Positions 4,603 through 13,978 of a DNA stretch of 26,357 bases are shown piece after piece. Location of the stretch: the IMG/VR virus record IMGVR_UViG_3300029319_000133, positions 1-26,357 of that record. The stretch is one strand, 5' to 3'. The stretch comes from a virus. The notes under the pieces are model-generated. The model did not search any database. It saw only the letters and a list, made by a program, of their open reading frames with translations, and was not told where the DNA came from. Within the stretch, counting starts at the first letter, position 1, and each line of letters begins with the position of its first letter. Position numbers and translations under genes: made by a program.

Positions 4603-5672
4603 GATTTTCTTAAAAACTTTAAATATTCACAAGCAATTTCTGGATTAAATATTGTAGTTACTAATCTATTGTCATCGTCATCGTATCTAGGGTCTATAAT
4701 AGTAACTGGGCAATTAAATATATTTTTATCGTCTAATCCTAGTTTGTCTGCATAACTATCCATTATTTTAAATGATGCTACTTGCAATGCATGAGATATA
4801 AGTCCTGATGATGGGTCTTTCAATACTTGATACCCTGAAACATGAGTATGTCCACAAGTAAGTATGTGGTCTTTCCATCCCATCTGAGCTGCTTTTGCAA
4901 CACCATGAGCAGTATTCCACATAGAATTACCTTTAAATGTATGCCTAGCATTTATAGTAACTTCTTTACCATTGGGAAAAATAAGGTTCATTCTTGCACC
5001 GAACCTTTCATATAAACCCTTATGGTCTCTCATAATAAATTCTAGTGGGTCTCCATCTCCACTCCATACATCATGATTACCAGCTACTAAGTATAACCAA
5101 TTTAATTTATTAACAAAGTATTCAGTAAGTTTCCATGATTCTTTTGCAGACGTAGATTGTTGTCCATACAATGCTTGTAGCCTTCCTATCCAATTGTTTT
5201 GTATGTCTCCTAAATTACCAGCAAACATTCCTTCCGTATCATTGATAAGGTCTATATACATTAATATTTGAGATAAATCTGTGCCATCGTCATCTACATG
5301 AGGGTCTCCAAAATGTGCAATACCGATTGGACCGTCAATATTTATTCTTATATCTACAAGTCTTCTACTTTCTTTTGATTTCTTTTTTTGTCTGTATGCC
5401 TTTTTTCTAAAATCTATAATATCTTCTATAGGCATTAACTCTGGGTCTCTATCGGCAACTTTAAATGGTGAGGGTTCAATTATAACAGGATTCAATGTTT
5501 TTCTACCACAAGAATTACATTGCCATTGTTGTTTTTTTATATCTTTTCTATAATGGAATCCATCTTTTCTTATATTTCTAGCACCGCACTTAGGACATCC
5601 TATAATATTACCATCGTCATCTTTTCTAAATTCATCAACTGTTTGTTTAATTGTCGTGTTTGAGTTCCCCAT
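4599..5672 (-). CDS. Zinc-ribbon metallophosphoesterase
   Basis: A 357-aa two-part protein. Residues 26-55 form a zinc ribbon (CPKC at 26-29, CNSC at 52-55) of the transposase/InsA type, which usually binds nucleic acid. A basic linker (KKAYRQKKKSKESRR, about 90-104) follows. The rest is a calcineurin-like phosphoesterase with its metal-binding motifs: D123/H125 in GDPH, D156 in NLGD, GNHD at 198-201 and GHTH at 274-277. The active site looks complete, so a metal-dependent nuclease or phosphatase is expected. Substrate is unknown; the zinc ribbon makes DNA or RNA plausible. It lies between small and large terminase, overlapping the small-terminase gene by 26 nt, which hints at a role in packaging or DNA end processing (inference). 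Confidence 0.85.
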   Translation of the reverse strand: MGNSNTTIKQTVDEFRKDDDGNIIGCPKCGARNIRKDGFHYRKDIKKQQWQCNSCGRKTLNPVIIEPSPFKVADRDPELMPIEDIIDFRKKAYRQKKKSKESRRLVDIRINIDGPIGIAHFGDPHVDDDGTDLSQILMYIDLINDTEGMFAGNLGDIQNNWIGRLQALYGQQSTSAKESWKLTEYFVNKLNWLYLVAGNHDVWSGDGDPLEFIMRDHKGLYERFGARMNLIFPNGKEVTINARHTFKGNSMWNTAHGVAKAAQMGWKDHILTCGHTHVSGYQVLKDPSSGLISHALQVASFKIMDSYADKLGLDDKNIFNCPVTIIDPRYDDDDNRLVTTIFNPEIACEYLKFLRKS

Positions 5673-11825: not shown

Positions 11826-12458
11826 ATGGCAAAAGAACTAGAAAATGTTCTATTCGATAGCAACAAGAAAGAAGCATTTGTACCAGTAGAAGAAGGTACA
11901 TACTTTGCTCACATCTCAGAACTTACTACTAAAGAGATGAATACAAAGGCTGGGCCTGCTATCATTGTAAACATGGGATACACATTGGATGATAAGTGTG
12001 CTACGTTAGACCAACCAGCATATGAGATGGTAGGATACAAGCATAGATTAGATGTCAATGGTAAAAAGATTCCATTATTAGATTCAGATGGAAAACAGAA
12101 ATTGATACCTTGCACTCATTTGCCGGGTAAGAAATTTTACGACAATGGTTTCTTTATCTTTACTAACAATGAATCTGCTAACAAAAATAGCAAATACTTC
12201 AAATTGCTTGATTCTTTAGGTATCGAACTTGAAGAAGTAAATGGTATGAAGAAACTAGTGTTAGTAGAAGAAGAAGATGTAATAGGTCTTCCTGTTCAGA
12301 TTACACTTGAAACTCATACATATGTTACAAGAGATACAAAAGACTTGCCTATTGACCAACAAGAGAAAAGGTCTTTGTTAAAAGCAAATGAAGTAACATC
12401 ATGGGAAGGTGGAGAACGTATTAGTCAAGAAGAACTTGACGACGATGTTCCTTTCTAA
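11826..12458 (+). CDS. SSB-like single-stranded DNA-binding protein
   Basis: A 210-aa protein ending in EELDDDVPF, nearly identical to the bacterial SSB C-terminal tip (DDDIPF) that docks partner proteins. The body is beta-rich with extended strands (GPAIIVNMGYTL, NGFFIFTNN, VIGLPVQITLETHTYV) compatible with an OB-like fold, and is longer than a standard SSB OB domain. Position after the nuclease and annealing genes supports coating of single strands during replication and recombination. I infer that the tip recruits host or phage repair proteins. The alternative is another phage family that borrowed the tip. Confidence 0.65.
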   Translation: MAKELENVLFDSNKKEAFVPVEEGTYFAHISELTTKEMNTKAGPAIIVNMGYTLDDKCATLDQPAYEMVGYKHRLDVNGKKIPLLDSDGKQKLIPCTHLPGKKFYDNGFFIFTNNESANKNSKYFKLLDSLGIELEEVNGMKKLVLVEEEDVIGLPVQITLETHTYVTRDTKDLPIDQQEKRSLLKANEVTSWEGGERISQEELDDDVPF

Positions 12459-12469
12459 ATAAGTTGCAA

Positions 12470-12565
12470 CCGAGAGATATTACTTGTTAATTTTGAGACG
12501 AGGGTGGTGTGTATTCAACCCGTATACTCTCCATATATACTCGTCTCTCTCTCGGCATCACCCTC
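12470..12565 (+). ncRNA. Candidate structured element 8 (contiguous-helix pseudoknot)
   Basis: Three exactly abutting helices. CCGAGAGA (12470-12477) pairs with TCTCTCGG (12548-12555). GAGACGAG (12495-12502) pairs with CTCGTCTC (12540-12547). The following GGTGGTG (12503-12509) pairs with CATCACC (12556-12562, one G-U), extendable to 10 bp if 12500-12502 is released. The third helix crosses the others, giving a pseudoknot with no spacer between the 3' strands. A GTATA/TATAC hairpin (12522-12540) also fits inside. It lies 11 nt after a stop and just before the next gene's AAGGAG. This is the most convincing structured element in the window. Confidence 0.65.
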
Positions 12566-12584
12566 AAACAATTAAGGAGAGACA

Positions 12585-12842
12585 ATGAAAGAATCAACTG
12601 CTTTAATTAAACTAACAAAATCTGAAATAGATTTAATAATAAATTCTTTAGAACTTACTGAAAAGTTATCTGAGCATTTCAATGGATATGATGCAGATAA
12701 TATGTTTACATATAAAGTAAAACATGATTTCATTAAAATAAGAAAAGACATAATAGAAGGAGAGAACAACAATGAAACACAAAACAAAGTGGAACAGGAA
12801 ACTCAAGGAAATAAAAGAGCTTGTGTTATCTGCGATGACTGA
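12585..12842 (+). CDS. Small hypothetical helical protein
   Basis: An 85-aa protein with a strong AAGGAG before the ATG. The first 60 residues are helical (LTKSEIDLIINSLELTEKLSEHF, FIKIRKDIIEG); the end has CVICDD, a lone CxxC. Its last 71 nt are also covered by the next frame, so the true ends of one or both may differ. No family recognised. Confidence 0.6.
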   Translation: MKESTALIKLTKSEIDLIINSLELTEKLSEHFNGYDADNMFTYKVKHDFIKIRKDIIEGENNNETQNKVEQETQGNKRACVICDD

Positions 12843-13506: not shown

Positions 13507-13870
13507 GTGTCCAGCCTGTGGATTCATTCCACCAAAAAGAGGCGAAAACATAAGTCTTAAAATGAGAAACTTGATGTCAAAAAGGAGTAAGAAAACAATC
13601 GAGTCTCTCAATAAGATAGCAAAACTTATTATAAACAATGTACCTCAAGACAACAGAAATACATACTATAATTTTCTTTATGGTATTAGAGACTGTAAGG
13701 ATGACATTGTGACATATTGCATAGAATCATACTATGATACTAAGGCATTTGAAAGAAATAAAGGATTTGCATATCTTAGAGTAATTATACAAAATCAATT
13801 CAAGAATAACGATAAAATACTAGAAAATGAGAGACGGAGACTTGGTTCTGTACCACCAATAATAGATTAA
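13499..13870 (+). CDS. Hypothetical protein with N-terminal CPACG knuckle
   Basis: About 123 aa from the ATG at 13499, which overlaps the previous stop by 8 nt; ATGs at 13469 and 13490 are alternatives with no better ribosome binding site. It starts MSKCPACGFIPPKRGE, a single CxxC knuckle. A basic helical body follows (LMSKRSKKTIESLNKIAKLI) with aromatic helices (TYYNFLYGIRD) and a basic C-terminus (NERRRLGS). This resembles small phage nucleic-acid-binding proteins, but no family is recognised. Confidence 0.6.
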   Translation: MSKCPACGFIPPKRGENISLKMRNLMSKRSKKTIESLNKIAKLIINNVPQDNRNTYYNFLYGIRDCKDDIVTYCIESYYDTKAFERNKGFAYLRVIIQNQFKNNDKILENERRRLGSVPPIID

Positions 13871-13959
13871 AGGCTCCCCATCATAGTTAAATCTTTTTTA
13901 CAATGAAATAGAAAGAGGGTTATAAATGAAAGATATAATGTTGGCGCATTGGGGAGCTT
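13871..13959 (+). ncRNA. Candidate structured element 9
   Basis: AGGCTCCCCA (13871-13880) pairs with TGGGGAGCTT (13950-13959) in a 10-bp stem with one G-U, enclosing 69 nt with a TTATA/TATAA hairpin (13920-13938). It begins right after a stop codon and is followed by TTATAAAAGGAG, the next gene's ribosome binding site. The GC-rich closing stem stands out in this AT-rich DNA. Confidence 0.45.
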
Positions 13960-13978
13960 TTATAAAAGGAGAAGTAAA

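Follow-up and report, generated by a model that had tools for sequence, protein, structure and literature searches.

The question raised by this locus is what lies between two genes of a viral genome, where the first-pass annotation had described a pseudoknot of three helices with perfectly abutting strands and had read it as one compact, mechanically stable fold. The window considered here, the whole stretch of 26,357 nucleotides that was analysed, belongs to a 40.7-kb virus record (IMGVR_UViG_3300029319_000133), and the element itself is a real pseudoknotted RNA of ~100 bases situated between two phage genes. The features needed to follow its architecture are given below, with primes denoting 3′ strands.

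11826..12458, + strand: upstream SSB-like gene, an open reading frame of 210 aa with the conserved C-terminal tip DDDVPF
12470..12477, + strand: helix A, 5′ strand, CCGAGAGA (read directly; covariation)
12478..12494, + strand: AU-rich linker between A and B, which in many relatives holds a hairpin (D) plus GTAAATTA
12495..12502, + strand: helix B, 5′ strand, GAGACGAG (covariation)
12500..12502, + strand: shared GAG, with partner CTC 12540-12542 (in B) or CTC 12563-12565 (in 10-bp C)
12503..12509 (12500-12509 in the 10-bp form), + strand: helix C, 5′ strand, GGTGGTG (covariation)
12510..12539, + strand: loop that contains a small hairpin, formed locally around 12510-12514/12522-12526 (from sequence and folding)
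12540..12547, + strand: helix B, 3′ strand, CTCGTCTC (covariation)
12548..12555, + strand: helix A, 3′ strand, TCTCTCGG, abutting B′ (covariation)
12556..12565, + strand: helix C, 3′ strand, CATCACCCTC (covariation)
12574..12579, + strand: Shine-Dalgarno AAGGAG of the downstream gene (sequence)
12585..12842, + strand: downstream gene, an open reading frame of 85 aa whose start lies 19 nt after C′

Direct reading of the sequence bears out the proposed layout, in which the 3′ strands of A, B and C are contiguous, as are the 5′ strands of B and C. Specifically, helix A comprises 8 bp, all matched (12470-12477 CCGAGAGA with 12548-12555 TCTCTCGG), as does helix B (12495-12502 GAGACGAG with 12540-12547 CTCGTCTC). 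Helix C, which does cross both A and B as had been claimed and is the best supported of the three, pairs GGTGGTG (12503-12509) with CATCACC (12556-12562) through 7 bp that include one G-U (12507 with 12558). A longer form of C runs to 10 bp (GAGGGTGGTG 12500-12509 with CATCACCCTC 12556-12565), and the GAG at 12500-12502 is therefore common to B and C. This exact arrangement of the three helices was found a single time in the window and in 0 of 300 shuffled windows, these being first-order Markov resamplings that keep dinucleotide content on average, with a descriptor that was fixed after the fact. The earlier contention that the arrangement is not due to chance is thus upheld, with covariation providing the stronger evidence.

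With respect to covariation, homologue searches in which the SSB-like protein, the downstream protein and DNA patterns served as queries yielded 53 listed members with 49 distinct cores; of the loci that the first DNA pattern had returned, about half lacked the element under a stricter search and were counted as chance hits. The approximately 50 distinct homologues reside in contigs of related uncultured phages. In a 34-sequence alignment, 97.2% of cells are paired across B (9 pairs) and C (7 pairs), and slid registers of the two helices pair only 40-60%. Double-sided changes are found in 8 of these 16 pairs, and the B + C covariation is reached by 0 of 500 shuffles, a statistic that, like the others of its kind given here, overstates independence because the members are related. 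Taken alone, helix B is paired in 96.4% of cells over 9 pairs, 3 of which have changed on both sides. The corresponding figures for the 10-bp form of C, which RNAalifold picks independently, are 98.8% and 6 of 10 pairs (0/500 shuffles), and examples from homologues given with this helix include GAGGGTGGTG/CATCACCCTC, GAGGGTAGTC/GACTACCCTC, GAGGGCGGTT/AACCGCCCTC, GAGGGTACTC/GAGTACCCTC and GAGGGTGCCA/TGGCACCCTC. The B and C pairs contain 45 G·U versus 0 A·C combinations, a bias which indicates that RNA of the + strand is the functional form.

The sequence of helix A turns over too freely for column-wise alignment, as seen in the strand pairs CCGAGAGA/TCTCTCGG, GCACTAAGG/CCTTAGTGC, AATACTAAGGA/TCCTTGGTATT, TGGTAGTA/TACTACCA, AATAGATAA/TTATCTATT and others. 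The tract directly after B′ nevertheless pairs with its own upstream region at a score of 15.5, versus 11.8 (sd 0.39) when permuted among members (0/5000 permutations). Covariation of A is present in most subfamilies, and there was no detectable helix A in L104, L108, L110, L112, L117 and L119. A covariance model of the core, which the first-pass annotation had put forward as a check, recovered left-out subfamilies at E values of 2e-10 to 3e-4 with one copy per record, and B, C and A all covary. Comparison of these homologues thus shows the three helices, with C crossing A and B, to have been kept through compensatory change.

Whether the three helices exist at full length at the same time is a separate matter. 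The linkers at 12502/12503 and 12555/12556 have zero length in the window, and a zero linker is also seen within the window's own subfamily (e.g., L003, L005, L012 and L067); the A′-to-C′ linker is 4-16 nt in most other subfamilies. We estimated the geometry from A-form coordinates, for which a deep-groove distance of 10 Å at 7 bp served as calibration. In this rigid-helix estimate, which is not a 3D model, an A–B stack of 16 bp needs 55.9 Å to be bridged between its open 3′ ends, and the 5′ ends of 7-bp C are 10 Å apart. Closure of the full A+B+C structure with zero linkers accordingly falls short by ~46 Å for A stacked on B, a gap that a free hinge narrows to ~1 Å without removing it, and becomes possible for a 5-bp B plus a 10-bp C with A kinked, or for B and C with A open. 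With linkers of zero length, therefore, the full helices of 8, 8 and 7 bp cannot coexist within this geometry, and the molecule would either shift to 5-bp B and 10-bp C or open A. The proposal that seamless packing amounts to one compact fold is not borne out by this calculation, and we suggest that such packing points more to strand exchange than to a rigid fold.

In terms of the shared GAG, one homologue, L111, carries AAG at this position, and both of its partners have followed, with CTC changed to CTT in B′ and CTC changed to CTT in C′. This single case suggests that both pairings of the shared bases are under selection. Nested energies for the window are -31.6 kcal/mol for the A+B state and -24.4 kcal/mol for the state with 10-bp C, which places A+B ahead by about 7, and in the A-less homologues L108 and L112 the 10-bp C is favored over B; all of these energies refer to nested folds.

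The genes around the element include those for a terminase large subunit, a DnaB-like helicase, a Cas4/RecB-like exonuclease and the SSB-like protein. The assignment of the latter is suggestive, as the protein has a DUF669 match under the cutoff (E 0.022) and its predicted fold gives weak Foldseek matches, mostly to OB-fold ssDNA-binding proteins (best E 0.014). Searches with this protein found no relative in bacterial and archaeal genomes and no match in isolated phages, which likewise gave no DNA match to the region, and the terminase shares just 22-25% identity with those of isolated phages. The 85-aa downstream protein has no Pfam or PHROGs match, and a fold search with the downstream protein returned nothing at E <= 0.001; its family is helical (two helices predicted) and keeps a CxxC at the C terminus.

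The placement of the element directly downstream of the SSB-like gene, as initially described, is true of the window and not of the family, in which the distance from the SSB-like stop to the element ranges from about 40 to 1100 nt. What is kept is the distance to the next start codon, which lies 17-32 nt from the end of C′ in 49 of 53 members and 49-51 nt in three, with no start codon found after C′ in one of the 53. This combination of constant start-codon spacing and variable SSB distance gives the element the appearance of a 5′ leader. The short spacing may be partly forced, since phage intergenic regions are compact, and another element of these loci (motif 3, described below) likewise has its end 15-18 nt ahead of an ATG. 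Among the downstream genes, six groups without mutual similarity can be told apart, which weakens the case for a specific feedback loop. In L005 and L006, near-identical elements stand ahead of genes that are not related, a sign that the gene behind the leader may have been replaced.

For the structure demonstrated above, we infer a role in translation. Our tentative reading, which we hold at somewhat less than even confidence, is that of a structured RNA, conserved across a group of uncultured phages, that forms part of the downstream gene's 5′ leader and affects translation of that gene in cis, and the element is probably a translational control element that refolds. In such a scheme, nested A+B would form first, during transcription, after which the C′ strand would enter, take the GAG from B and build the B–C pseudoknot, the formation of which would open or kink A. 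A ligand, the ribosome or a phage protein, perhaps the SSB-like protein, might set the balance between folds, which would alter 30S access to the adjacent start site. A broader version, in which this is a new class of phage leader RNA that switches by branch migration of a three-base strand between crossing helices, and in which the SSB-like gene is followed by several other RNA classes, uncatalogued and arranged in tandem, is conceivable but rather doubtful.

Several other explanations bear on the same observations. Rather than a leader, the element could be a separate small RNA, processed from the operon transcript and acting in trans by binding a phage or host protein or RNA, with its placement near the start codon reflecting genome compactness. 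The unrelated downstream genes fit such an RNA, as do the arrays of other structured RNAs that relatives carry in the same region, as in a small-RNA locus, and an anti-Shine-Dalgarno link that is not above control. However, in relatives with further RNA elements after the SSB-like gene, this element (motif 1) invariably comes last and 3′-most wherever it is present, beside a start codon. Moreover, no intrinsic terminator (a GC hairpin followed by a U tract) was found in or after the element in the window, and promoters ahead of it are no better than shuffles in nearly all members, such that a free RNA would need processing; we regard this explanation as unlikely. Less likely again is a translational operator for the neighboring SSB-like protein in the style of T4 gene 32, where SSB would nucleate on the pseudoknot and spread over an unstructured ribosome binding site. 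In having a pseudoknot immediately ahead of an AU-rich ribosome binding site, the locus follows the T4/RB69 gene 32 design (PMC535899), and an SSB-like gene lies upstream in every member found via the SSB-like protein, yet regulation would fall on a gene other than the SSB gene, up to 1.1 kb can separate the element from the SSB-like gene, and the SSB-like identity is only suggestive.

An expression switch based on Shine-Dalgarno sequestration would have the B′/A′ pyrimidine tract GTCTCTCT (12543-12550) pair with the Shine-Dalgarno region GGAGAGAC (12576-12583), with strand A serving as the anti-anti-Shine-Dalgarno. This pairing extends to 8 bp in the window, 9 bp in L082 and L111, and about 10 bp in L100, and the start region duplicates part of strand A in L082 and L085. 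Nonetheless, the tract pairs with its own Shine-Dalgarno region no better than with those of other genes (median rank 0.26, 0/52 below 0.05), and A+B is far more stable; we rejected this platform and consider it improbable. We give almost no credence to a structured single-stranded DNA element, such as a replication or packaging signal, despite the replication gene neighborhood (helicase, SSB-like and exonuclease genes), as the 45 G-U versus 0 A-C asymmetry is that expected for + strand RNA, and orientation and position before genes are fixed. Two further candidates were set aside. A readthrough or frameshift pseudoknot was rejected because the frame past the SSB-like stop, open for 38 codons in the window and for just 1-16 in most relatives, is not conserved, and ribosome masking of strand A just past the SSB-like stop was rejected on the grounds that this distance is not conserved. 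The cis-acting leader remains the reading that we carry forward.

Other RNA elements were observed at these loci. In the window, a second conserved structure occupies 13870-13965 on the + strand (TTAAAGGCTCCCC...GTTGGCG...GGGGAGCTTTTA), with a Shine-Dalgarno and start codon (13980) directly after it; its fold z-score is -2.3, and its exact pattern recurs in close relatives. Its GTTGGCG is in common with motif 5 of other relatives, a hairpin (AAGGGGAGT...GTTGGCG...ACTCCCCTT) that is often immediately ahead of motif 1 and is located after the SSB-like gene in L109, L113, L115, L118, L121-L124 and L129. Motif 2 (AAGGTGTTGAAGCG...GTTCGCCTT) is a structured and uncatalogued element that lies after the SSB-like gene and ahead of motif 1 in L108 (about 4750-4830) and L110 (about 4632-4740), and also in L116 and L119. 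Motif 3 (CTGAGGAGCTGACCGAAGTATGA...GGAGGCTCCTCAG), with variable closing pairs, sits just after the SSB-like gene in L100, L101, L105, L107 and L114, and had no Rfam match for L100, L101 and L105. Motif 4 (AAGGCTAGGTATTGCCA...TATGGCTCTAGCCTT), whose closing helix differs from member to member in a compensatory manner, occurs after the SSB-like gene in L108, L112, L116, L117, L119, L126 and L127.

Strongly covarying phage leader RNAs are still few in catalogues, and this element is absent from Rfam. Specifically, Rfam 15 at the gathering score gave 0 matches in the window and 0 in 20 relative loci, and the element alone, searched at E<=10, returned one irrelevant match only. A literature search, with most subscription journals outside its scope, found no description of the element. 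Its crossing helices, together with about 50 natural variants, offer a clear system for testing how a pseudoknot close to a start codon controls initiation, and the element also flags a phage locus where unknown structured RNAs are abundant.

The closest functional parallel is the T4 gene 32 operator, in which a ~28-nt pseudoknot in the SSB gene's own leader is followed by a less structured 3′ part of >40 nt (PMC535899). As in the T4/RB69 operator, a phage mRNA pseudoknot lies immediately ahead of the ribosome binding site (19 nt separate C′ from the ATG at 12585), with an SSB gene involved or nearby. The present element differs in having three helices, in heading other genes, 17-32 nt before the start, and in that SSB binding is only conjectured; it follows the SSB-like gene instead of forming the leader of a repressed one. 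The closest described motif is STAXI, a pseudoknot often near SSB genes that comes as 2-3 repeats with frequent UUCG loops (Weinberg et al. 2010, PMC2864571). The two share a pseudoknot near an SSB-type gene, and in place of the at least two tandem repeats of STAXI, one match per record was found. As the T4 gene 32 operator and STAXI each have a defining feature that is absent here, we file the element under neither. The tandem repeats before a ToxN-like gene that mark type III toxin-antitoxin (ToxI-like) systems were likewise not seen, with a single copy per record and no toxin match for the 85-aa protein. Pseudoknot riboswitches and ribosomal-protein operators (preQ1-II, rpsO) illustrate that a pseudoknot near a start site can gate initiation; the present element differs from these in its A/B/C topology, its exchangeable GAG and a Shine-Dalgarno pairing that is not above control. 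Compensatory changes on + strand pairs, the general mark of a structured RNA, are present, and the element represents an RNA family that is new in itself but belongs to a broad kind already known, the structured leader or intergenic RNAs of phages; its shared-strand topology is unusual.
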